From NCBI GenBank assembly GCA_951828585.1, contig OX639991.1, positions 744,001 through 808,000 on the forward strand: a stretch of DNA of 64,000 bases, in the 5' to 3' direction. The notes under the pieces are model-generated. The model saw only the letters and a list, made by a program, of their open reading frames with translations, had not been told where the DNA came from and ran no database searches. Each line of letters opens with the position of its first letter. Position 1 is the stretch's first letter. The position numbers and the translations under genes were made by a program. Shown piece after piece: positions 1,930-17,044 of the stretch. Source of the DNA: Longimicrobiales bacterium. Its GTDB lineage: Bacteria > Gemmatimonadota > Gemmatimonadetes > Longimicrobiales > Gaopeijiaceae.

Positions 1930-2571
1930 TCACCGATCGGGACGCTTCCCAAAGAGTCGATGAAGCCAAGTCGTCAACTCAACACAGGTAGCCACCTCAA
2001 CGTCCAGATCCCCCGCCCCGATAGCCAGCCCCATCGGACGGGGCCGCTCCCTCGCCGCCAGCCAAGCGTGAACTTTGGCTCGCAGCTCCTTCTTCGACCT
2101 GAACAGCCTGCTCTCGGCGGGAATCCCGTCGATATAGGCCTTGGACAGAGGCCAGACGGAATCATCGCGCGGAATCATGGCCGCAATGAAGTCCTCAAGC
2201 TCACCCTGGGATCGGTTGTCGGGCATGATCCACACGCCGACATCCGGGTCCGGTGGAACAGCACGTATGACGGTGCCCCCGGGACCTCGGTTGTCGGTTT
2301 CGATCCCGGCTCGCCGCAGCCGATCCGCCACGGCTGCCCACCTAACCTCGATATCATCGTTCGCTTCAACCATGATCCCGACGGCCCGACGGCCAGGAAC
2401 CTTGAGTTCCGACCCGATGGACGACATGAGCTCGTCCAAGCCTCCTTTTTCCACGATCTGAAAGTTCGATTCACCGCGGCTACGTCGACGGATGTGATCC
2501 ACGACATGCCGGTCATCCCGGCCCTCAACGAGCAAGACACGGTCGGGTACCGGGCCCGTCAGCAAGGCCAT
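1930..2571 (-). CDS. DUF3226-type TOPRIM protein
   Basis: 213 residues. The N-terminus holds LLVEGRDDRHVV (Glu16, Asp19, Asp20), the first acidic site of a TOPRIM fold. A second acidic cluster, EANDD, lies near residues 69-73, and VWIMPDN with GELEDF follows at 113-128; that last block is characteristic of DUF3226. TOPRIM proteins of this group pair with OLD/AAA15-type ATPases in anti-phage loci such as PARIS, where the TOPRIM protein (usually DUF4435) is a nuclease. The gene starts 6 bases after the ATPase stop, so the two are almost surely co-translated. The nuclease role here is inferred from those relatives. Confidence 0.8.
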   Translation of the reverse strand: MALLTGPVPDRVLLVEGRDDRHVVDHIRRRSRGESNFQIVEKGGLDELMSSIGSELKVPGRRAVGIMVEANDDIEVRWAAVADRLRRAGIETDNRGPGGTVIRAVPPDPDVGVWIMPDNRSQGELEDFIAAMIPRDDSVWPLSKAYIDGIPAESRLFRSKKELRAKVHAWLAARERPRPMGLAIGAGDLDVEVATCVELTTWLHRLFGKRPDR

Positions 2572-2577
2572 GCCGGG

Positions 2578-3702
2578 CTATCTGACCTCGATGCCCTGCT
2601 CGGCCGCAACGGCCAAGTCTTCCCCATCGTACTCCACCGCCCGAAGTCGGCCATTGGCCCCCTCGAGGCGTACCAGCACGCCCTCCAGGCCCGTGGCGCC
2701 TGCCGCCTTCGCGAACCCGCGGACACAGTCCCAACTGTGCGTGGTCGCCAGAACCTGCACGCCGTCGCGGTGCGCGGTACGGAGGACCATCTCCCACATG
2801 GCGGGCTGGACGGAATGGTGGATCCCGTTCTCGGCCTCGTCGATCAACAGGAAGCCGTCTGCGGCGTTGGCCAGAAACATCGCGATTCCGAATAGGCGTA
2901 CCGCTCCGTCGCCGAGACTCTGCAGGGAAACCGGGCTGCCGCGTCCCTTGATCCGAACAGCGACGCGCCGCACATGTCGGTCGGCTCGGCCACCGCCCAG
3001 CATTGCCACGCGTTTCACCTCGTCCCCAAGCACGAGGTTGAGTGCGGCTACCGCGAGGTCCTCCTGTTCCGTTAGCGCGATGTTGTCCCAAAGACGCGCC
3101 GCGTCCTCGGCTGTTAGCGATTCCGGCCCGATGGATTCGCACTTGGCCGCTGGAGGAAAATCCTGTCTGTCGTCGAAGCTGGGGCGGCTAAGCAGGGTCG
3201 GGTTCTTCATCCAGCCTTGGTTGAATTCGGCCGTGTACAGCGAGTCGATGCAATCGAGAAAAGAGACCTCCAGGACCTGAGTGGTGCAGAAAGAGGCCAG
3301 CTCAGCCACTCCGGCTGAAGAAAACCCTCGACCCCTGGGTTTCTCTTCAATCCGGAGTACTTCGTCGTCGCCAACCGGCCCGACCCGGATGGGAATCGTG
3401 TCATTGCGGTTCCCTCTATGGAACAGGGTACTGAAATCGAGCGGTGCCACTGCGCCACCGGCGCCTGGCAGCGGTCCGGCCAGAACCTCGCGGCGCTCGA
3501 TGAGCTGGGCCAGCGCGTACCGATGGCCCCTCGCGGCATAGAGGCGGACTGCGTCGAGCACCGTGGTCTTTCCCACCGCATTGCGACCCGCAAAGAGGGT
3601 CACGCGCCCCAATCGCGGGATGGTCAGCTCCCCGATCCCGCGGAAACCACGGATCTGGAGGTCCGGCAGCTGCGACGCGTTGGGTGACGGCTGCTCAGTC
3701 AT
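2578..3702 (-). CDS. OLD/AAA15-like SMC-family ATPase
   Basis: 374 residues. An N-terminal beta-rich segment (LQIRGFRGIGELTI) precedes Walker A AGRNAVGKTT at residues 38-47. A signature-like LGDGAVRLFGIAM lies near 262, Walker B FLLIDEAENGIHHS near 284, and a switch block ATTHSWDC near 315. This is the order and length of the single-domain AAA15/AAA21 ATPases that lack the fused TOPRIM of OLD nucleases; here TOPRIM is supplied by the next gene. First gene of a three-gene operon with DUF3226 and HEPN proteins. By analogy with AriA of PARIS it may sense infection and hold its effector inactive. That role is inferred. Confidence 0.85.
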   Translation of the reverse strand: MTEQPSPNASQLPDLQIRGFRGIGELTIPRLGRVTLFAGRNAVGKTTVLDAVRLYAARGHRYALAQLIERREVLAGPLPGAGGAVAPLDFSTLFHRGNRNDTIPIRVGPVGDDEVLRIEEKPRGRGFSSAGVAELASFCTTQVLEVSFLDCIDSLYTAEFNQGWMKNPTLLSRPSFDDRQDFPPAAKCESIGPESLTAEDAARLWDNIALTEQEDLAVAALNLVLGDEVKRVAMLGGGRADRHVRRVAVRIKGRGSPVSLQSLGDGAVRLFGIAMFLANAADGFLLIDEAENGIHHSVQPAMWEMVLRTAHRDGVQVLATTHSWDCVRGFAKAAGATGLEGVLVRLEGANGRLRAVEYDGEDLAVAAEQGIEVR

Positions 3703-4336: not shown

Positions 4337-4810
4337 TCAGTCCGGCGTCGCCGCCTGGTCGATCCGTTCGTACCGGAACCACACTCCGTCCAAATGCTCG
4401 AAGTCGCCATCCGTTGACAGGAGAATCGCACCGCTGGCGTGCGCCGTAGCCGCGATCCAAAGGTCGTTCTTCCCCATCGGCATCGCTGGTTTGGGTGGAG
4501 GGGCCTCGCCGGGGGCGGGCACCGACTTCCCAGAGCTCCATGCGTCGATCAGGGCGTATGCGCGCAGGATGTTTGGATCCTTGATCGGAAGGTCAGGAAA
4601 CTCGCGGAGCATCCGCTCGAGTGTCGTTCTCTTCTTCGGGCCCCATCCATTCCTTTCTGCGATCGCGAGGATCTCGCCCTTGCAAACAACGGACGTGAAG
4701 GAGATCGCGTCAGGGTCACCCAGATGGAATCGGGTGTACGTCCAGCGTGCCCAACGGGCTTCGCGGGTGAGGCCCAGCAGTATGTTCGTATCCAGCAGGA
4801 AGCGTCGCAT
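4337..4810 (-). CDS. PIN-domain (VapC-like) ribonuclease toxin
   Basis: 157 residues with the four acidic positions of a PIN nuclease: Asp7 in LLDTNILLG, Glu46 in CKGEILA, Asp116 in KNDLWIAA, and Asp134/Asp136 in LLSTDGDF. PIN toxins cleave RNA with bound magnesium or manganese. The gene follows a 331-residue unknown protein by 12 bases on the same strand, where a VapB-type antitoxin would normally be. No small antitoxin is visible, so the large partner may fill that role or the pair may be something else. The domain call is firm; the physiological target is unknown. Confidence 0.88.
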   Translation of the reverse strand: MRRFLLDTNILLGLTREARWARWTYTRFHLGDPDAISFTSVVCKGEILAIAERNGWGPKKRTTLERMLREFPDLPIKDPNILRAYALIDAWSSGKSVPAPGEAPPPKPAMPMGKNDLWIAATAHASGAILLSTDGDFEHLDGVWFRYERIDQAATPD

Positions 4811-6000: not shown

Positions 6001-6345
6001 GGATGCGCTCGGTCAAGAGGGCTGCGCGGCCCGGCCCGTCGTCCCCATCCTCGTCCTCTGTCAGCGCCTCAACTGACGCGGACCCAAGCGCCACCGAGTG
6101 TCTGGAGGCCGCACCGAACCGTCACCCCTTCGACGACTGCTCGATCCGGGCCCTCCAGACTGGCGGTTTTGGACGACGGACGGGATTGGCAACTCCAAGT
6201 CCCGCGAGATCGTCACCCGGGTCGTGGTCGGTGGTGAGCCGGACTGCGACGAGGGCGAGGTCTCTCGCGGCTCTCCGATCGGCTTCTGTTCCGGACTCCC
6301 ACCGGCCCGCGCGGGGAGAGGAAGAGTTCGATTTCGGACTGCCCC
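6001..6345 (+). pseudogene. Decayed copy of the HsdR-N/Gre-like gene
   Basis: On the plus strand, translated pieces match the intact gene at 10287-11324. HPFDDCSIRALQ near 6122 equals HPFDDFSIQAVQ there. REIVTRVVVGGEPD followed by GEVSRGSPIG near 6205-6285 equals REIIVRVVVGREPD and GEVSRDSAVG. The pieces are in different frames and the segment between them (about 140 residues) is missing, so this is a deletion remnant. It lies directly beyond the end of the GHKL ATPase gene, in the same orientation as the intact copy on the far side of the module. Confidence 0.7.
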
Positions 6346-6348
6346 CCC

Positions 6349-8550
6349 TCACCTCCCCGGCGCCATCAACCCGTGCGCCTTCGGCAGAAACTCCGACATC
6401 ATTCTGGCAAAATGCCGGTAGTACTCGTCCCAGGACATTCCCTCGAAGTCCCGCGGATTCGCCTCGATGTTCCCCTGCAGCCGCCGCGCACACAACGCTT
6501 CCGCCACCACTTCCGCCAACAACACCCGAAAATGAAGCTCATCCTGCCCCGGATACTGCTCCGACTTCGGTCCCAGATACCGCTTGAGCGCCGGGTGCCG
6601 CGCTCCGATCTCGAGAACGTTCTTGTTCCACCGATACCGCAGCGCGCCATGGTCCACGTCTTCCAGCTTGATGACGATGCCCGCCCCCGCGGCAGGCGCG
6701 GCCCGCAGTTCAGTCTCCGCCTCGTGGTCCCCGAGGCGCGCGATCAACCTGGTCGGCGCGGCGTCATCGTCCAGCACTGCCACGGTGAGCTTGCACACGG
6801 CAACCCCGAGGGTGGCGCTCAGGACCAGCTTTCTGGCCCCCGAGATACGGAAGTCGTCCGAGGACAGCTCGAGATCGAACTCGCGGCCGGCCGAGCGGGC
6901 CAGCGCCGTCGGGGCCAGGAGCCGGATGCTTCTGCGGGAGCCGCCACGGATGCGATAGCGTTTGCGCTCGAACTGGAGCTCCGTGACGTCCGTGTACCTC
7001 TCGGCCTCCGAAGCGAGCACCGCGATCGTCGATTCCGCCTTGATGGGACCGACACGCGCTTCCAGGCCGGTTGCCGACGTTTCCGTCAGCGCCTTGACCG
7101 ACCAGGTCGCGCGCAACGCACCCTCCTGTGCCTCGACGGGTTGCAGTGGGACGTTGGGACGCTCTGCCTGGATGTCGTCGGTCAGGCACTCAACCTCCAC
7201 GAGCTCGCCTTCGCCGATCTCCGGGAAGGCCTTGGACCGCACCGTAAGCCAGCACTTGAGGGATTGCTCCCGGACCACCTGCGCGTACTGCGGGCTGAGC
7301 GAATACCCATGGATCTGAAACTGGCTTCCCCTCTCCTTCCGTTTCGGATCGCGGGACATCTCCTCGTCGGAGTAGTCATCCATGAACTGATTCGCCGCCC
7401 TTTCGAGGGCGTCGAGGCGCTTGCGCGTCTTGTGGCTCTCGACGGTGCGCGCCCGCTCGCGTTGCTCCCGGGTCCGTTCCTCTTCGACCAATGGGCGGAG
7501 CAGTGTGAGCGCCCGTTCGTAGAGGGCCGCCACGAAGGGGTGGTCCGGGATCAGGCCCGACTTGCGTGAGGGGTCCAGGATTGGAACCGGGTTGTTTTCC
7601 GGATGCCGCTTGCCCCGGGCTTGGCGTTCGTCGTATTCGTTCCACAGATCGTCAATCGCTTCGCAGGTGAGCCGGCCGTAGAACCACTGCGCGTGCGCGT
7701 CCCATTCCAGACTCCGGTCGAAGAGCGTCGCCTCGTGAATCGCGTGCCTCGACTTGACCAGTATCCCCCCGAGCCGGAACCGGTTTGTTCCCGACTGGAA
7801 TTTCCTTCTCGCTCGATGGATGACCAGCTTGGCCTTCGCACCGGGATACCCCGGCACCGCGAACGTCCTGGAAACGCGCCTCTTGCCGGCGGGCCGGTGA
7901 AGACTGACCACGCGGTCCTTCCCTTTCTTCAGGCCCCGGGCCACCAGCGTGGTCTGCTTCTGCCAGACGATGTCGCGAAGGCGCACCAGTCTGGCCACAT
8001 TGGGCACGAGCGTGTCGATCTTGGGGATCCGGTGGCTGGGATCAATTTCGATCGTCACCACCGTGCCGGTGCCCTCGCCGATCCCCAGGCGCTTTCGGAC
8101 TGCCGAAGTGACCTTGCGCGAGTTGTCGGCCTCGTACTCCATGTTCGGAAAGATCCGGCAGGTGTGCATGCGCCCATCGCCCGCGATCGACTCGAAGGTG
8201 ACCTTTCCGAGCGCCGCGATGTCCTTTGCGCCGCGGGAATTGGTGCCGCGTACCGCCTTCCCTTCCTCCATTCCGCTCACCCGTCCGCCGATCCGGCCGA
8301 GCTTGCGGTTCATCTGCCCGGTGGTCATGCCGTCCGCGAAGTCGCGCACCCGCAGGATCGACGACCGGCCCCTTCCCCGGCGTCCCAGTTCGATCTCGAC
8401 TCGTCCCGAAGACCCGAGAATCTGGTAGCGATCGTCGGAGTTCGTGACGAGCTCCACGATGGCGTCATAGACATCCCGGATGGCCAGCTTCGCGTCCTGA
8501 ACGACGCGTCTGGACGCTACTTCCAGCTGTCTTCGCTTGACGGCGGCCAT
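6349..8550 (-). CDS. GHKL (HSP90/histidine-kinase-like) ATPase of unknown function
   Basis: 733 residues from ATG 8550 (MAAVKRRQLEVASRR); an open upstream extension exists but lacks family features. The N-terminal 170 residues carry the Bergerat nucleotide fold: N-box VELVTNSDD at 32-40, G1-like RDFADGM at 69-75, lid RGTNSRGAKD at 101-110, and TGTVV at 161-165. The rest is not recognised; it includes a charged helical region (about 400-450) and beta-rich segments. GHKL ATPases lacking kinase or MutL domains occur in several defence-type loci, such as MORC-like proteins. The gene is divergent from the AlbA_2 ATPase gene, with a shared 118-base promoter region. ATPase fold: confident. Job: unknown. 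Confidence 0.78.
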   Translation of the reverse strand: MAAVKRRQLEVASRRVVQDAKLAIRDVYDAIVELVTNSDDRYQILGSSGRVEIELGRRGRGRSSILRVRDFADGMTTGQMNRKLGRIGGRVSGMEEGKAVRGTNSRGAKDIAALGKVTFESIAGDGRMHTCRIFPNMEYEADNSRKVTSAVRKRLGIGEGTGTVVTIEIDPSHRIPKIDTLVPNVARLVRLRDIVWQKQTTLVARGLKKGKDRVVSLHRPAGKRRVSRTFAVPGYPGAKAKLVIHRARRKFQSGTNRFRLGGILVKSRHAIHEATLFDRSLEWDAHAQWFYGRLTCEAIDDLWNEYDERQARGKRHPENNPVPILDPSRKSGLIPDHPFVAALYERALTLLRPLVEEERTREQRERARTVESHKTRKRLDALERAANQFMDDYSDEEMSRDPKRKERGSQFQIHGYSLSPQYAQVVREQSLKCWLTVRSKAFPEIGEGELVEVECLTDDIQAERPNVPLQPVEAQEGALRATWSVKALTETSATGLEARVGPIKAESTIAVLASEAERYTDVTELQFERKRYRIRGGSRRSIRLLAPTALARSAGREFDLELSSDDFRISGARKLVLSATLGVAVCKLTVAVLDDDAAPTRLIARLGDHEAETELRAAPAAGAGIVIKLEDVDHGALRYRWNKNVLEIGARHPALKRYLGPKSEQYPGQDELHFRVLLAEVVAEALCARRLQGNIEANPRDFEGMSWDEYYRHFARMMSEFLPKAHGLMAPGR

Positions 8551-8668
8551 GGGTACAAGGTCGGAAGGCCGTCCGCCGTTTTCAAGCTGCGGATGGGTGA
8601 GGGGCAAATGAGTGGGGTGCCTTGAACCACGACCGGAACACCTCCGCCGACGCGTTAGCTTTCTCTGC

Positions 8669-10234
8669 ATGACGACTCCCCCGGACACCGGAGCAAGCCG
8701 CTTGAGCGAAGGACAGCACCTCGAGTGGAAGACCGCCTGGCGCGACGACCACCTGAAATCGCTGTGCGCCTTCGCGAATGCGGATGGCGGCACGCTGGAG
8801 ATCGGCCGTGACGACGACGGAAATGTCGTCGGAGTCGCCGCCCGGGAGCGTCGCCGATTACTGGAGGAGTTGCCGAACAAGCTCCGCGACCTCCTTGGCA
8901 TCGTTGCCCCGATGGACGTTCGCGAGGATGACGGTGTCCCCTACCTGCGCATCGTCGTCGAACCGTATCCGGTGGCGATCAGCTACCGGGGCGTCTACTA
9001 CCAGCGCAGCGGAAGCACGAACCAGATGCTCCGCGGCCCCGCCCTCGACCGCTTCCTGCTCGGAAAAACCGGAAGGTGCTGGGACGGGATGCCGGACCCG
9101 CGGGTTGCGCTGGATGACCTTGATCCAGCCGCGATAGCGGGGTTTCGCAAGCAGGCAGGCAAGGAGAAGAGGATTTCGGGCGACGCGCTCGACGAGGACA
9201 ACGCCGGTCTCATCGAGAAGCTGCGTCTCACGCACGGCGACTACCTGACCAAGGCGGCTATTCTGCTGTTCCATCACGATCCGGAGCGGTTCGTGGCGGG
9301 TGCGCACGTGAAGGTCGGCTACTTCCGAAACGACTGGGACGTGCGCTTTCACGATGTGATTTCCGGCGATCTCTTTGCCCAGGTCGACAAGACCATGGAG
9401 CTGCTGCTCTTCAAGTACCTGAAGGCGGGCATCGGCTACGACGGAATCTACAGGGTCGAAAGCTACCCGATGCCCGAGCCGGCGCTGCGGGAGTCGCTCC
9501 TCAATGCAGTCGTCCACCGGGACTACGCGGTTCCCGCCCCGATCCAGATTCGCGTGCACGATGACCGCCTGCGCATCTACAATCCAGGCACACTCCCCGA
9601 GGGTTGGACACTGGAGAAGCTGCTCGGCCCGCATCCGTCCCAGCCCTACAACCCGGACATCGCGAACGCGTTCTTCTGGGCGGGTAAGATCGAGACTTGG
9701 GGACGTGGGATCGACCGCGTTCTTCGCGCTTGCAGGAGGGCCGGGACACCGGAACCGGAGATCCGATTGGAGCCCGGCGGCCTCTGGTTCGAGTTCAGGT
9801 TCTCGGATGACTACCTGGAGAGCGTGGGCGCGAAGCGAGAGCGGGGCGAGGATTCGGGCGCAACCACCGAGGGACCGGGTCGGGACCAGGTCGGCACCAA
9901 GTCGGCACCAAGTCGGCACCAAGTCGATATTCTCCGTAAGTCGTTGGCGGCGCAGCCCATCACGAAACTCATGGCGGTGGTGGGAAGAAAGGACCGCACC
10001 AAGTTCAGGAACCAGGTTCTCAGGCCGTTGCTCAACGCTGGATGGATCGAGATGACCATTCCCGACAAGCCCACGAGCAGGATGCAGAGGTATCGGACCA
10101 CCATCGCCGGGAGAGAAGTGCTGACGGCGGTGGAGGGCGGTGGGGAATTGGGACGATACCCGGTGCGGGGGACTTCGGGGGACGAGGGGCTGCCCATGGT
10201 GAGATCGTCGCGAAGAGAGTGGCCCGATGAATAG
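8669..10234 (+). CDS. AlbA_2/Schlafen-type ATP-binding protein with winged-helix tail
   Basis: 521 residues from ATG 8669. The AlbA_2 domain opens with LEWKTAW and CAFANADGGTLEIG (residues 18-44). An HATPase_c_4 module follows, with ESLLNAVVHRDYA near 273 and LRIYNPGTLPEGW near 305, then WGRGIDRVL. The last 120 residues look like a winged helix (ILRKSLAAQPITKLMAVV). This architecture is annotated as RecG-like or Schlafen-type ATP-binding proteins; some relatives are regulators and others act in antiviral loci. An 11-bp tandem repeat lies in the linker before the winged helix. The next gene starts 52 bases downstream, suggesting co-transcription. Confidence 0.82.
   Translation: MTTPPDTGASRLSEGQHLEWKTAWRDDHLKSLCAFANADGGTLEIGRDDDGNVVGVAARERRRLLEELPNKLRDLLGIVAPMDVREDDGVPYLRIVVEPYPVAISYRGVYYQRSGSTNQMLRGPALDRFLLGKTGRCWDGMPDPRVALDDLDPAAIAGFRKQAGKEKRISGDALDEDNAGLIEKLRLTHGDYLTKAAILLFHHDPERFVAGAHVKVGYFRNDWDVRFHDVISGDLFAQVDKTMELLLFKYLKAGIGYDGIYRVESYPMPEPALRESLLNAVVHRDYAVPAPIQIRVHDDRLRIYNPGTLPEGWTLEKLLGPHPSQPYNPDIANAFFWAGKIETWGRGIDRVLRACRRAGTPEPEIRLEPGGLWFEFRFSDDYLESVGAKRERGEDSGATTEGPGRDQVGTKSAPSRHQVDILRKSLAAQPITKLMAVVGRKDRTKFRNQVLRPLLNAGWIEMTIPDKPTSRMQRYRTTIAGREVLTAVEGGGELGRYPVRGTSGDEGLPMVRSSRREWPDE
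9878..9921 (+). repeat. Four 11-bp tandem repeats inside the AlbA_2 gene
   Basis: The unit AGTCGGCACCA occurs twice exactly (9900-9921), once with one mismatch (9889-9899) and once with two (9878-9888). The unit is not a multiple of three, so gain or loss of one copy would shift the frame and remove the winged-helix end of the protein. Confidence 0.75.
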
Positions 10235-10286: not shown

Positions 10287-11324
10287 ATGGATCAAACGAG
10301 CAGCGTAGTGGACGCGGACAGACCGCATGACCCCGGCGGAGAGCCGCGCCCCGTGGACGATCCGGCGGGTGGGCTGCCCCTCTTCGACCGCCGTCTGCGC
10401 ATCGAATCCCTCACCGAGAAGCTCAACGGCCTTGTGGATGACCTCGAGCAGCGGAGCATCGCGACCCGGACCCGGCGCGATGTCGCGGACGGCGTCCTCC
10501 TCCCTCTCCTGCGGCATCTCGGTTGGGATGTCGCGGACAACACGGCGGTCACGCCCGGTTTCAAGACCCCGGCCGGCGCCGTCGACTTCGCACTCTCCCA
10601 TCCTACCGGCGATCCACGGATTCTCATCAGGATCGGAGAACTCCCGGGACCGGCGGCCACCCCCGGCGATCATCCTTTCGACGACTTCTCCATCCAGGCC
10701 GTCCAGCTGGCGGTCTCGGAGGACGGTCGCGGCTGGAGATTCCATTTCCCGGCGGGCCGGGGGAGCATCCGCAACCGGGAGTTCGCCCGCTTCGACATCG
10801 TGGCCGACGCGAACGAGGCCATCGCCGAGATCCTCGACGCATACCTGTCGTTCCACGCCGCCAAGTCGGGACAGAATTTCCGCGAGGCCGCATGGGACTA
10901 CGGCAAGAGACGCTTTCCGGCCGAGGCTCACCGGGCGTGGCGGCGTTCCGTGGCCGGGCGCGAGGTTTGGCGCCGCTTTCTGCGGGAAATGGAGGAGACC
11001 ATTGGCGTTCCAGCCGACCGAAGGCGGGCTATGGGCTTTGTCCGCGGCCAGCTCAGCTCGATTCTCTGGCCGCCGGACCCCCCGGATGCGAAACCCGCCC
11101 GCCGGGTCGGGGTGGGCGACAGGGTGTGGGTGTACGACTTCGAGGCCCGTGAAATCATTGTCCGAGTCGTGGTTGGCCGGGAGCCGGACTGGGAAAAGGG
11201 GGAAGTCTCTCGCGACTCCGCCGTCGGCCATGCGCTGCTCGGGGCCCGCGAGGGAGAGGAGAGGGAAGTCGTCCTGCCGGGCGGAGACGCCACGCGCATT
11301 CGAATCGTTCTGATTCGGGGTTGA
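10287..11324 (+). CDS. HsdR-N-like domain joined to a GreA/GreB-like C-terminal domain
   Basis: 345 residues. After an unordered start, residues 55-120 (TRRDVADGVLLPLLRHLGWDV, then FALSHPTGDPRILIRIG) resemble the N-terminal nuclease-type domain of type I restriction HsdR subunits. The catalytic core is altered: the usual D-x-E-x-K is not clear. The last 75 residues (VGVGDRVWVYDF, GEVSRDSAVGHALLG, EREVVLPGGDATRIRIV) resemble the C-terminal FKBP-like domain of GreA/GreB, which binds the RNA polymerase secondary channel rim. I know no named family with this pairing. It follows the AlbA_2 gene by 52 bases. Decayed pieces of the same gene lie at 6001-6345 and 13622-13695. Domain assignments are by eye and moderate. 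Confidence 0.6.
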   Translation: MDQTSSVVDADRPHDPGGEPRPVDDPAGGLPLFDRRLRIESLTEKLNGLVDDLEQRSIATRTRRDVADGVLLPLLRHLGWDVADNTAVTPGFKTPAGAVDFALSHPTGDPRILIRIGELPGPAATPGDHPFDDFSIQAVQLAVSEDGRGWRFHFPAGRGSIRNREFARFDIVADANEAIAEILDAYLSFHAAKSGQNFREAAWDYGKRRFPAEAHRAWRRSVAGREVWRRFLREMEETIGVPADRRRAMGFVRGQLSSILWPPDPPDAKPARRVGVGDRVWVYDFEAREIIVRVVVGREPDWEKGEVSRDSAVGHALLGAREGEEREVVLPGGDATRIRIVLIRG

Positions 11325-11383: not shown

Positions 11384-12595
11384 TCACCCACCCACCACAA
11401 TCCGAAACCGCACCACCCGCTGCACCTCCAGCTCATCCCGGGTCACGCCCCAGACGTAGTCACCGTCGAAGACCGAGAGCGAGACACCGCCCGGCGGCGC
11501 CACGGCCCCCAGGTAGGTCCCGTCGGGCTCGAAGACATCGAAGCGCAGCGGCGTTCTCCACGACACGGGCACCGAAGAGGGATCCTCCGGGTCGTGATCC
11601 TCGTTGTCGACCGGGTATCCTTCGGCCGCCACCCTCACCCAGATGCGTCCGTCCCGGCCGGTCAGGAGTGCGCTGAAGAACGGCTTGTGATCCGGTACCG
11701 CCGGACCGCTCCAGCTCCAGTCCGGGTCCCTCTCGCGCATGGAGCGCTCCATCTGTTCTCGAGCGTAGGCACCCTCCTCCTCGAGGACCGGGACCGGATC
11801 CACAGCGCGTTCGATTCGGAGCACGCCGTCGTCCCGGGCAAGGTCGATCCGGTACTCGGAGGGCATGCCGGTGAGGAAATGGCCGCTGGGGTGGACCGTC
11901 CATTGGAACATGGGGCTGAAGGGCCCGAACCCGGTCGTCGATGGGCTCGTCGGTTGAGGGAGCGTGTCCACGGGAGTCCCGTCCGGGCCCAGCACGAGCA
12001 GTTGCGTGACGAGACTGCCGCCGCCGGAGGACGGGTACCGGGATCGGTCGACTATGGACACCATCGTACGACCGTGCATGTCCGTGTACAGCGGTGTAAC
12101 CGAGTGCAGGCCCCCCGCGGGGTATCCCCACTGCTCCGTGTGGCCGGGTTCCGGACCGAAGACCTCGATGCGCTGGTTGCCGGGATTGCGCACCACCAGC
12201 CGCCCGTCCGGCAGCATCGCGATGGCCTCGGCGCGGTTGAACTCGCCCGGTCCTTCACCCGGCCTGCCCAGCGTCTCGACGTGATTCCCCTCAGCGTCGT
12301 AGACGCCGACATGCTGGGCCTGGTAGTCGAACACGTAGACGTTGCGATCATCGTCCACCGCGATCGAGAAGATCCATCCGAAGAGATACTCGTCGGGGCC
12401 GTCGAGTTCGCCGATCGAGACCTCGGGAACCAGGGTCGCCTCCGCACCCCACACGCTTCCCGACAGAGTGCGGACCACGGTCGTGTCGCCGATGGTTTCG
12501 ATGACCACGTCCGGTCCGTCCGCGGAAGGGTCCGCGTCGGATGCGCAAGCCGCGAGAATGAACGGCGTCGTCAAGAGCAGGAAATGGGTTCTCAT
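11384..12595 (-). CDS. Six-bladed beta-propeller lipoprotein (subfamily A, copy 1)
   Basis: 403 residues. A lipoprotein signal ends in FILAAC with Cys17. The body has repeated propeller blades: NVYVFDYQAQHVGVYD, LPDGRLVVRNPGNQRIEVFG, DGRIWVRV and the closing DGDYVWGV. GEGPGEF is the hallmark of this NHL-like six-bladed family. It should sit on the outer or inner membrane facing the periplasm or outside; the ligand is unknown. It is one of three close paralogs in the same orientation (others at 13780 and 15779). A conserved operator-like sequence starts 33 bases upstream of the start codon. Confidence 0.88.
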   Translation of the reverse strand: MRTHFLLLTTPFILAACASDADPSADGPDVVIETIGDTTVVRTLSGSVWGAEATLVPEVSIGELDGPDEYLFGWIFSIAVDDDRNVYVFDYQAQHVGVYDAEGNHVETLGRPGEGPGEFNRAEAIAMLPDGRLVVRNPGNQRIEVFGPEPGHTEQWGYPAGGLHSVTPLYTDMHGRTMVSIVDRSRYPSSGGGSLVTQLLVLGPDGTPVDTLPQPTSPSTTGFGPFSPMFQWTVHPSGHFLTGMPSEYRIDLARDDGVLRIERAVDPVPVLEEEGAYAREQMERSMRERDPDWSWSGPAVPDHKPFFSALLTGRDGRIWVRVAAEGYPVDNEDHDPEDPSSVPVSWRTPLRFDVFEPDGTYLGAVAPPGGVSLSVFDGDYVWGVTRDELEVQRVVRFRIVVGG

Positions 12596-12627: not shown

Positions 12628-12644
12628 GTTTACATTATGGAAAC
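12628..12644. promoter_or_regulatory. Recurring 17-bp operator/promoter motif
   Basis: GTTTACATTATGGAAAC, an imperfect dyad (GTTT-N9-AAAC), lies 33 bases before the propeller start at 12595. It overlaps the stop codon of the upstream small gene. Nearly the same 17-mer sits 32 bases before the paralog start at 17044 and in the region upstream of 5818. Confidence 0.55.
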
Positions 12645-13024
12645 TGTGGTTGATGTTTTCGGGTCCGCCGCTGACCGTCCGGCAATTCCGCGCGAACCCG
12701 CCGCTCCAGCGCCCGTTCGAAACTGACCAGCCGGCGGATGAGCGCATTGTAGCGGGAATGCGCGTCCCCGGGATGGTCGGCGCCGATGGCGAGGTAGAGC
12801 GATATCTCGGGTGGGTGCGGCAGCGGTGGCGCGGGAGGAATGTCCAGTCCCGCCGCCCGCAGCCGCGTCGCTCCCACGGAGACGAGGAGCGCCTCGACAG
12901 TCGTTTCTCCGCTACGCAGCGCCCGGATCCCCTTGGCGACGAGGTCCGCGCCCGGTAGATCGCCGGGAACGGCCGCCGCAGCCGTCGCCGTGCGGCCGGC
13001 CGCCGCATCGCCCGTGGACGTCAT
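12635..13024 (-). CDS. Small unknown protein coupled to a nucleotidyltransferase
   Basis: 129 residues. Its ATG overlaps the stop of the upstream nucleotidyltransferase gene by 4 bases (ATGA), so the two are translationally coupled. The N-terminus is Ala-rich; the middle reads GIRALRSGETTVEALLVSVGATRLRAAGLDIP and the end is basic (RRLVSFERALERRVRAEL). No family is recognised. Pairing with a minimal nucleotidyltransferase suggests a two-component module like other MNT-type toxin-antitoxin pairs, where one protein modifies or restrains the other. This is inferred only from coupling. Confidence 0.65.
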   Translation of the reverse strand: MTSTGDAAAGRTATAAAAVPGDLPGADLVAKGIRALRSGETTVEALLVSVGATRLRAAGLDIPPAPPLPHPPEISLYLAIGADHPGDAHSRYNALIRRLVSFERALERRVRAELPDGQRRTRKHQPQFP

Positions 13025-13569
13025 GGCCGGATCTCCGCGATCGCGCGACTCACTTTCAGCCGAAAGCTGGGCGGGTCAATGGCGGGGTAACGTTCGAGAT
13101 CCGGGTAAATGGCGTCGAACAATTCCGCCAATCGCCCCGGCTGGATCAAGCTCCGGCGCGCCATCTCGCCGACATCGAAAAGGTCCAGTTCATGTCCGCG
13201 CTCGATCTTCGCGAGAGCCTGCGCATGGAAGTCATAGTGATAGTAGTCGACCCGGCCGTGCCTGACGATGAACCGGCTCCGCTCCCGCCAGCCCGGAAGC
13301 GCGGGGATGAAGTCGTCGGGGGCGGCAAGCTCGATGTTGATGGCGAGCGCGTCCTTCGCCCGCGCGATCGCGGCGAACACGCCGGGCGGTTCGGGGTCGA
13401 GCTTGAGGTCGATGTCCACCGTGGTCTCCCTCCACCCCAGCAGCACTGCCGAGCTGCCCCCGACCAGGTATATCCTGCCCTCCCCGCGGGCGGCGTTCCC
13501 GAGGCGCCGCATGAGAGTGCGCACCTTCTCCGCGCCGGCAGGGGGGCGCATGGCTCGGTGTCTGCCCAT
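13021..13569 (-). CDS. DUF6036-like minimal nucleotidyltransferase
   Basis: 182 residues from ATG 13569. The fold signature is IYLVGGSSAVLLGW (GGSS at 37-40) followed by the metal-binding VDIDLKL (Asp52, Asp54). The rest is helical with IERGHELDLFDVGEM. This matches short antitoxin- or resistance-type nucleotidyltransferases such as DUF6036, which may transfer AMP or another nucleotide. The downstream small protein overlaps it by 4 bases. The pair is wedged between two propeller paralogs on the same strand. Fold assignment is firm; the substrate is not known. Confidence 0.8.
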   Translation of the reverse strand: MGRHRAMRPPAGAEKVRTLMRRLGNAARGEGRIYLVGGSSAVLLGWRETTVDIDLKLDPEPPGVFAAIARAKDALAINIELAAPDDFIPALPGWRERSRFIVRHGRVDYYHYDFHAQALAKIERGHELDLFDVGEMARRSLIQPGRLAELFDAIYPDLERYPAIDPPSFRLKVSRAIAEIRP

Positions 13570-13621: not shown

Positions 13622-13695
13622 CAGGAATCGCGAGTTGCCGCGCGGATGCCGTCGTGCTTCCTCTTCTGCGGCATCTCGGTTGGGTTGCCGGGCCA
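13622..13695 (+). pseudogene. Short fragment of the HsdR-N/Gre-like gene
   Basis: The plus strand contains VVLPLLRHLGW, matching VLLPLLRHLGW of the intact gene at 10287-11324, with about 50 bases of close DNA identity (compare 13640-13685 with 10492-10535). Only this piece of the HsdR-N-like domain remains and no start codon or downstream part is present. Confidence 0.6.
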
Positions 13696-13779: not shown

Positions 13780-15048
13780 TCAGCCCCCGCTCACCACAAT
13801 CCGAAACCGCACCACCCGCTGGACCCCCAACTCGTCCCGGGTCACCGCCCAGACGTAGTCCCCGTCGAAGACCGGTTCCACATAGGGCGTGAAATCGTCC
13901 GGCGGCGCCACGACTCCCAGATAGGTCCCGTCGGGCTCGAAGACATCGTAGCGTACCAGTTCTCTCCAGAACACGGGAATCGAAGAGGGATCCTCCGGGT
14001 CGCGATCCTCGTTCTCGACCGCGCGTGCCTCGGCAGACAGCCTCACCCAGATGCGTCCGTCCCGGCCCGCCAGCAGTTCGTGAAAGAACGGCTTGTGATC
14101 GGGGATCGGCGGGCCGTTCCAGTTCCAGTCCGGGTCCACGTTCCGCATTCCCCGCGTTGTGCGTTCGCGTTCGGAGGCGCGCTCCTCGTCGTTCACCGGA
14201 ACCGGATCCGCGGCGCGTTCGATCCGGAGCACGCCGTCGTCGCGGGCGAGGTCGATCCGGTATTCGGAGGACAGACCGGTCAGGAAATGGCCGCTGGGGT
14301 GGACCGTCCAGAGAAACACGGGGTTGAACGGCACGGGTGTTGTCGTCGAAACATGCGTGGGTTGTCCACTCGCGTTGACACCTCTTCTCTCGGCACTCAG
14401 CATCGGGGGCTCATGGGTGCTCGAGGGATCCGGGAGGGAGTCGACTTGCGTTCCATCCGGTCCGAACACGATGAGGTACAGTCCGTCGTCCCGAGACAGG
14501 ACGCCGGTACGCACGAGCGTGCGTCCGTTCACGTCGGTGTACAACGGGAAGGACGAGTGTAATCCACCTGCGTTGTACCCCCATTGTTCCGACTCGCCGG
14601 TGGCGGGAACGAAGACTTCTAGCCGCTGGTTTCCGGGATCGCGCACCACCAGCCGGCTGTCCGGCAGCAGCGCGATGGCCTCGGCGCGGTTGAACTCGCG
14701 CGGACCCTCTCCGCGTCTGCCCAGCGTCTTCACGTAAACCCCGGCCGAGTCGAAGACGCGCACCTCCTGAGCCTGGCCGTCGAACACGTAGACGTTGCGG
14801 TCATCATCCACCGCGATCGAGAAGATCCAACCGAAGAGATATTCCTCGGCCCCGTCGAGTTCACCGATTGAGACGTCGAGGACCAGGGTAGCTTCCGTGC
14901 CCCAGACGCTTCCCGACAGGGTGCGCACCACGGTGGTGTCGCCGATGGTTTCGGTGACGACCTCGGGTTTGGCAACGGGAGGCACCGTTTCGGCTTCGCA
15001 GGCCGCGAGAATGAACGGCGTCGTCAACAGCAGAAAACAGGTTCGCAT
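13780..15048 (-). CDS. Six-bladed beta-propeller lipoprotein (subfamily A, copy 2)
   Basis: 422 residues with the lipobox ILAAC at the end of the signal (Cys17). Sequence tracks copy 1 closely through TIGDTTVVRTLSGSVWG, SIAVDDDRNVYVFDGQAQ and RIWVRLSAEA, and ends FDGDYVWAVTRDELGVQRVVRF. It carries an extra loop near residue 230 (ERRGVNASGQPTHVS). The upstream DNA keeps the CACCTGGTGAAGG-like leader of copy 1 but has lost the 17-bp motif; instead a lipoprotein gene ends 43 bases before it, so it may be transcribed with that gene. Function of the propeller is unknown. Confidence 0.88.
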   Translation of the reverse strand: MRTCFLLLTTPFILAACEAETVPPVAKPEVVTETIGDTTVVRTLSGSVWGTEATLVLDVSIGELDGAEEYLFGWIFSIAVDDDRNVYVFDGQAQEVRVFDSAGVYVKTLGRRGEGPREFNRAEAIALLPDSRLVVRDPGNQRLEVFVPATGESEQWGYNAGGLHSSFPLYTDVNGRTLVRTGVLSRDDGLYLIVFGPDGTQVDSLPDPSSTHEPPMLSAERRGVNASGQPTHVSTTTPVPFNPVFLWTVHPSGHFLTGLSSEYRIDLARDDGVLRIERAADPVPVNDEERASERERTTRGMRNVDPDWNWNGPPIPDHKPFFHELLAGRDGRIWVRLSAEARAVENEDRDPEDPSSIPVFWRELVRYDVFEPDGTYLGVVAPPDDFTPYVEPVFDGDYVWAVTRDELGVQRVVRFRIVVSGG

Positions 15049-15778: not shown

Positions 15779-17044
15779 TCACCCCCCACCCACCACAATC
15801 CGGTACCGCACCACCCGCTCCACCCCCAGCCCGTCCCGGGTCACCCCCCACACGTAGTCCCCATCGAAGACCGGGTTCACGAACGGCGTGAAATCGTCCG
15901 GCGGCGCCACCACCCCCAGATACGTCCCGTCGGGCTCGAAGACGTCGTAGCGCAGCGGCTCAACCCAGGTCACCGGCGCCGGTGAGGGATCGTTCGGATC
16001 GTGGTCCTCGTCTTCCACGGCGTGTGCCTCGGTCCACAGCCTCACCCAGATGCGGCCGTCCCGTCCAGCCAGCAGTTGCTGGTAGAACGGCTTGTGTTCC
16101 GGGATCGAGGGGCCGTCCCAGCTCCAGCCTGGAATGTTGGATTGCAGGCGCCGTTCGACGCTTTCGCGCCGCCGGGCGCCCTCGTCGGCGTGGACCGGTG
16201 CGGGATCCGTGGTCCGTTCGATTCTGAGTATGCCGTCGTCGCGGTTGACGTCGATCCGGTAGTCGGCGGGCAGGCCGGTGACGAAATGGCCGCTGGGGTG
16301 GATGGTCCACTGAAACGAGGGGGCGAAGGGTACCGGTGCGGTGTACCTCGCATTTCCTCCCTCGACCTCGCCCTCGGCCACCACGACAGGAGGCTCGTAA
16401 GGGCTCGTGGGTTCAGGGAGCGTATCGAGGTGCGTCCCGTCCGGCCCCAGCACGATGATGTGCCAGACCCAATCAGTGCTCGACAGATCGCGGGTGATCA
16501 GATATGTGCGGCCGTGCGTGTCGGTATGAAGAGGGGAATTCGAACCGGAGTTCCCCGGATCGTATCCCCAGTGGTCGGTCTCTCCGGCACCGGGACCGAA
16601 GACGGCAACCCGCTTGTTCCCGATATCGCGCACCAACAGTCGGCCATCCGGAAGAATGTCGATGGCCTCGGCGCTTCTGAATTCGCCCGGCCCCTCTCCC
16701 CGGCGTCCCAGCGTCTCCACGTATGCACCCTCGGAGTCGAAGACGCGGACGTGGTGAGCCTGTCCATCGAACACGTACACGTTGTGTTCATCGTCCACCG
16801 CGATCGACCAGATGTTGCCGAAGAGGTACTCCTCGTCCCCCTCGAGTTCGCCGATCGAGATTTCGGGCACCAGGGCCACCTCCCCCTCCCACACGCTCCC
16901 CGACACGGTGCGGACCACGGTCGTGTCACCGATAGTCTCGGTGACGACATCCGGTCCCGCAGCGTTCGAGCCGGTGTCGGTCTCACAGGCCGCAAGGCCG
17001 ACTGCGCCCGCCGCGGCGCCCACCAACAGAAGATTGCTTCTCAT
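15779..17044 (-). CDS. Six-bladed beta-propeller lipoprotein (subfamily A, copy 3)
   Basis: 421 residues. The signal peptide differs from copies 1 and 2 (LLLVGAAAGAVGLAAC, Cys20) but the body is clearly paralogous: TIGDTTVVRTVSGSVWEGE, NVYVFDGQAHHVRVFD, GEGPGEF, RIWVRLWTEA and FDGDYVWGVTRDGLGVERVVRY. The conserved 17-bp motif lies 32 bases upstream of the ATG, the same distance as in copy 1. The M49-like peptidase gene ends 60 bases upstream on the same strand. Ligand or partner unknown. Confidence 0.88.
   Translation of the reverse strand: MRSNLLLVGAAAGAVGLAACETDTGSNAAGPDVVTETIGDTTVVRTVSGSVWEGEVALVPEISIGELEGDEEYLFGNIWSIAVDDEHNVYVFDGQAHHVRVFDSEGAYVETLGRRGEGPGEFRSAEAIDILPDGRLLVRDIGNKRVAVFGPGAGETDHWGYDPGNSGSNSPLHTDTHGRTYLITRDLSSTDWVWHIIVLGPDGTHLDTLPEPTSPYEPPVVVAEGEVEGGNARYTAPVPFAPSFQWTIHPSGHFVTGLPADYRIDVNRDDGILRIERTTDPAPVHADEGARRRESVERRLQSNIPGWSWDGPSIPEHKPFYQQLLAGRDGRIWVRLWTEAHAVEDEDHDPNDPSPAPVTWVEPLRYDVFEPDGTYLGVVAPPDDFTPFVNPVFDGDYVWGVTRDGLGVERVVRYRIVVGGG

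Follow-up and report, generated by a model that had tools for sequence, protein, structure and literature searches.

Kaur et al. (2021; PMC8195603) predicted a set of conflict systems, TPR-GreA/B-C-PIN, that engage RNA polymerase (RNAP) through a GreA/B C-terminal domain and in which a REase is one of the variable N-terminal effectors. The sequence-only reading of the gene described here held that, to its knowledge, no known defence system had been described in which a nuclease-like or DNA-binding domain is brought to transcribing polymerase, which was too strong given that GreA/B-C conflict proteins with REase effectors had been predicted in that work. In the open-access literature covered by our searches, no description of an HsdR-N-like domain joined to a Gre C-terminal domain came up. 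For E. coli GreA, the S121P substitution abolishes RNAP binding both in vivo and in pull-down, and specific binding seems to need both Gre domains (PMC7527559).

The gene lies in a 64-kb window (the whole stretch of DNA analysed, whose coordinates are used below unless another locus is named), which sits within a complete genome of 4.47 Mb. It is laid out as follows.

10287..11324, plus strand: fusion gene, 345 aa, with an ATG start and a TGA stop; start and length are conserved in orthologs
10389..10856, plus strand: restriction-endonuclease-fold (HSDR_N-like) domain, residues 35-190, from homology to HSDR_N proteins and a fold match
10857..11060, plus strand: helical region, residues 191-258, common to stand-alone relatives and not a Gre coiled coil
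11094..11315, plus strand: GreA/GreB C-terminal (FKBP-like) domain, residues 270-343, from PF01272 and a GreA/Gfh1 fold match

The proposal that an HsdR-N-like domain is fused to a Gre C-terminal domain was borne out by Pfam for the tail, by homology for the front half and by AlphaFold2 folds. Over residues 270-343 the tail scored 40.6 bits with PF01272 (GreA_GreB), whose cut-off is 26.9, and the protein stops two residues beyond this match. No Pfam family, HSDR_N and HSDR_N_2 included, matched the front half directly with the threshold relaxed to E 0.1, and its assignment came from relatives: residues 39-258 are homologous to stand-alone proteins of the phylum (tblastn, best match 36% identity, E 3e-34), and the scanned stand-alone homologues match HSDR_N and/or HSDR_N_2 and have no Gre tail. 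HSDR_N and HSDR_N_2 each matched eight of the 18 members of the alignment. No PADLOC model matched the fusion protein, and a PDB sequence search with a profile of the nuclease half returned no match, the restriction fold being seen only by fold comparison. A spurious open reading frame was rejected on the grounds that orthologs keep both frame and start, that dN/dS is mostly below 1, and on the codon score.

Structure prediction, suggested earlier as a check on both halves, gave a Gre/FKBP fold for the tail and a DrdV/BpuSI/HsdR nuclease fold for the front, so that the outcome of neither fold did not occur. The pLDDT was 83.6 in the AlphaFold2 model of the whole fusion protein and 88.2 in that of the front half by itself. 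In VIA-align comparisons, residues 271-344 superimposed on GreA with a Z of 12.7 (rmsd 1.6, 73 aligned residues) and the tail on Gfh1 with a Z of 12.2. Residues 41-199 of the whole model matched DrdV (Z 10.2), as did the front half alone (Z 10.4, rmsd 3.0, 125 aligned), which also matched BpuSI (Z 9.3) and the HsdR subunits of V. vulnificus (Z 8.3) and EcoR124I (Z 7.7). The AlphaFold2 input alignments include relatives, and the models are thus partly dependent on the homology argument, while the Pfam match of the tail is independent of it. A viral structure library gave no match at E <= 0.001. The fold of residues ~41-199 is common to the type IIL/IIG enzymes DrdV and BpuSI and to type I HsdR; unlike these, the fusion protein has lost the catalytic residues and carries neither methyltransferase nor motor domains.

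GreA/GreB, Gfh1 and Rnk share the FKBP-like C-terminal domain with the fusion protein, the solved structures being 22-32% identical to it over 68-75 residues. Identity to Gemmatimonadota GreA is higher, about 36-47%, and the resemblance to the GreA of the phylum extends to the domain junction, where the fusion reads PARRVGVGDRV and the GreA encoded in this genome PADRVGFGSRI. The serine of the RNAP loop is kept.

11208..11219, plus strand: RNAP-binding loop S308-R-D-S311, which corresponds to S121-S124 of E. coli GreA by alignment to 1grj

S308 and S311 align with S121 and S124, respectively. Since the tail keeps both the Gre fold and the serine equivalent to E. coli GreA S121, it is reasonable to suppose that it brings the front domain to RNAP; because both Gre domains seem to be needed for specific binding in E. 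coli, a lone C-terminal domain may bind only weakly. In GreA/GreB, Gfh1 and Rnk an N-terminal coiled coil with an acidic tip precedes this domain, whereas the fusion protein has the restriction-fold domain in its place. The family of the Gre coiled coil with its two acidic tip residues (PF03449, GreA_GreB_N) did not match the fusion protein and, in a genus-wide search, matched only at separate greA genes. An ordinary two-domain GreA is present, one each, in 22 of the 23 genus genomes, and in nine genus genomes the fusion contributes the sole additional Gre C-terminal domain above cut-off. In one draft genome (G021, locus L039; 98% complete) no canonical GreA was found and the fusion holds the only Gre C-terminal domain, which may reflect an assembly gap.

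The nuclease half was compared at its active site between ten fusion sequences and eight stand-alone relatives. All eight stand-alone proteins kept D...E-x-K and Q-x-x-x-Y in the alignment. The corresponding positions in the window are given here.

10584..10586, plus strand: Asp100, the sole canonical catalytic residue still invariant (10/10 fusions)
10629..10637, plus strand: lost E-x-K site, here R115-I-G117, from the alignment with stand-alone relatives
10671..10685, plus strand: H129-P-F-D-D133 (HPFxD), in place of Q-x-x-x-Y by alignment

The D-x-E-x-K site proposed for inspection is not there: the glutamate is Arg115 and the lysine Gly117 in the window's protein. Across the ten fusions the glutamate position reads R, R, K, K, E, S, T, G, K and K (lost in nine, Glu in all eight stand-alone proteins), and the lysine position holds Gly or Glu throughout. 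This loss of E-x-K across 10/10 fusions led us to reject an active HSDR nuclease in canonical form; the term 'nuclease-like' suits the fold and ancestry of the domain but does not extend to catalysis of the canonical kind. H129, P, F and D133 were invariant in the ten fusions, at the place where the eight stand-alone relatives have Q and Y. The alignment thus argues for a pocket that was rewritten rather than merely decayed; with its own strict signature, HPFxD, a new job, either binding or altered chemistry, is favoured over simple decay. Both halves are mostly under purifying selection, with dN/dS among genus members mostly 0.2-0.5 for the front half and 0.13-0.42 for the Gre tail, and a single outlier of 0.78 at low dS.

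We found 11 fusion relatives, all in Gemmatimonadota. Of the 23 genus genomes, nine carry a fusion, full or broken, and 14 have none; one further genome of the family carries a fusion cut by a contig end (G359), and one genome of another family (G149) carries one that is 45% identical. A scan of an 84,980-species collection, which detects close relatives only, returned two Gemmatimonadota loci, both of this genus. An origin in phages or plasmids was rejected, as tblastn against phages and plasmids and a scan of viral contigs gave no relative. Each half formed a single clade against its relatives (support 100/100 and 100/99), a result compatible with one fusion event as judged from these trees. 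The frame is intact in eight members from two families, frameshifted in one genus member (G007) and internally deleted in another (G022), so the gene is dispensable. In the latter (L042, 9471-10319) about 38 residues are lost, including the E-x-K and HPFxD region, and the frame is open with the Gre tail kept. The window itself holds traces of further copies.

6108..6273, plus strand: decayed second fusion copy, adjoining the 3' end of the GHKL-like gene
13641..13690, plus strand: short N-terminal-domain remnant of a further fusion copy (84% over 50 bp, E 2e-9)

The evidence for the decayed copy is a DNA match at 6192-6273 (76% over 82 bp, E 1e-10), protein fragments at 6108-6231 and a piece of the Gre tail.

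The fusion gene occupies a variable island that holds defence candidates, the following among its neighbours.

8612..10234, plus strand: SLFN_AlbA_2/HATPase_c_4/Fic-like_C protein, upstream of the fusion on the same strand and 52 bp from it
6349..8901, minus strand: GHKL-type ATPase-like gene, by motif only, with no Pfam match
4337-4810: PIN gene in the window's island
1930-3702, minus strand: PDC-M38-like ATPase and DUF3226 TOPRIM pair

The last of these, in which a DUF3226 TOPRIM gene (PDC-M38B, E 9e-31) comes after that of an AAA ATPase (PADLOC PDC-M38A, E 1.5e-68), is a candidate anti-phage pair. A DUF6036-like nucleotidyltransferase and a small partner gene (13021-13569 and 12635-13024, minus strand) form a toxin-antitoxin-like pair that recurs in L035 and L043, and three lipoprotein-like 6-bladed beta-propeller paralogs (11384-12595, 13780-15048 and 15779-17044, minus strand) are likewise seen in the surroundings of several further fusion loci. 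The GHKL-like gene repeatedly has a pair of AAA/STAND-like ATPase and AAA-TPR genes nearby (L039, 6210-9958; L070, 1702-5705). Genes of 470-530 aa beside three fusions (L035, 7845-9266; L037, 8005-9477; L038, 2-1588) were rejected as partners because they carry a C-terminal transposase-type DUF772 domain. The SLFN_AlbA_2 protein is in the same island in five of the nine fusion genomes.

Instead of working as an ordinary nuclease, the fusion protein is probably seated on the transcription machinery in a sensing, adaptor or regulatory capacity. The best overall reading, which we put forward tentatively, is of a chromosomal accessory protein tethered to RNAP by its GreA C-terminal domain, in which a restriction-fold module with a rewritten pocket and a dismantled canonical catalytic site fills one of these roles, plausibly for defence. 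The Gre tail would dock at the secondary-channel rim, on the beta-prime coiled coil, in competition with GreA, and the restriction-fold module would thereby be held beside the transcribing polymerase, where it may bind nucleic acid or a partner in a sensing, adaptor or regulatory role, plausibly to counter invaders. Having neither the Gre coiled coil nor its acidic tip, the protein should be unable to stimulate transcript cleavage. Docking, competition with GreA, the ligand and the role in defence are what we infer. The absence of the gene from 14 of the 23 genus genomes, its breakage in two (G007 and G022) and the absence of a strictly conserved operon partner count against this reading.

It could be that HPFxD forms a new active site, and the label 'non-catalytic' would then be wrong. 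The corresponding alternative, that D100 together with the new H129 and D133, as catalytic residues that have migrated or been substituted, cuts the transcript or the template at the RNAP secondary channel, would draw on the invariance of all three residues (10/10), on the location of H129 and D133 at the Q and Y positions of the pocket-lining Q-x-x-x-Y, and on the proposal by Kaur et al. of a nuclease at the secondary channel in the related TPR-GreA/B-C-PIN proteins. It is unlikely, as every member lacks the lysine in its canonical place and the helix that bears Q-x-x-x-Y in active relatives is nearly absent from the model, in a region where the pLDDT is about 64-68. The broader proposal that these residues form a new active or ligand-binding site, kept at the channel by the Gre tail, making the protein a transcription-coupled restriction effector on invader transcripts or DNA, seems improbable.

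Nor do we give much credence to the fusion being a regulatory partner of the SLFN_AlbA_2 or GHKL-like defence gene, a dead nuclease that would keep hold of the partner or silence it, linking it to transcription. A GHKL-like gene or a close SLFN ortholog occurs in all nine fusion genomes of the genus and in five of the 14 others (Fisher p 0.003), in an either-or grouping that was chosen after seeing the data and an association that may reflect one shared hotspot. The 3' end of the GHKL-like gene faces an intact, convergent fusion in L038, L039 and L042, and a decayed fusion piece in the window and in G015 (L074), where the intact copy lies elsewhere. However, neither gene accompanies the fusion throughout, their orientation and distance differ between loci, genes with DUF772 lie in between, and the member from the other family (L041) adjoins neither SLFN nor GHKL. 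It is quite unlikely, too, that the gene is an evolutionary relic or a selfish passenger of the island, in which a degenerate piece of a restriction protein captured a GreA tail without a selected function at RNAP. The patchy distribution, the frameshifted and internally deleted copies and the additional, decayed copies of the window and of L074 would fit such a gene, but dN/dS mostly well below 1 in both halves, the invariance of the derived motif and the eight intact frames across two families would not.

The closest relatives of the front half are the stand-alone HSDR_N/HSDR_N_2 proteins of the same phylum (L044-L051), which share the nuclease domain and the helical region with the fusion up to residue ~258. 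In these proteins D...E-x-K and Q-x-x-x-Y are intact, the C-terminus bears DUF4268 or another domain, and there is no Gre domain; one of them, L044, with DUF4268, is PDC-S11-like by PADLOC. These stand-alone relatives with intact motifs are a matched control for mutational work, for which the invariant HPFxD motif provides the handle.

With the TPR-GreA/B-C-PIN proteins the fusion shares a Gre C-terminal domain that addresses RNAP, a conflict-type module placed before it, and occurrence mostly as a stand-alone gene. Unlike them, it has no TPR match before the Gre domain and no PIN domain after it, and its REase-fold module is fixed, not variable, and has lost E-x-K. Because TPR and PIN are absent and the REase pocket is non-canonical, we do not regard the fusion as a member of that group. 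The logic of riding on transcription has so far only been predicted, for the TPR-GreA/B-C-PIN proteins, and if the fusion protein binds RNAP it would be a small (345 aa), concrete and testable example of restriction machinery repurposed to ride the transcription apparatus.
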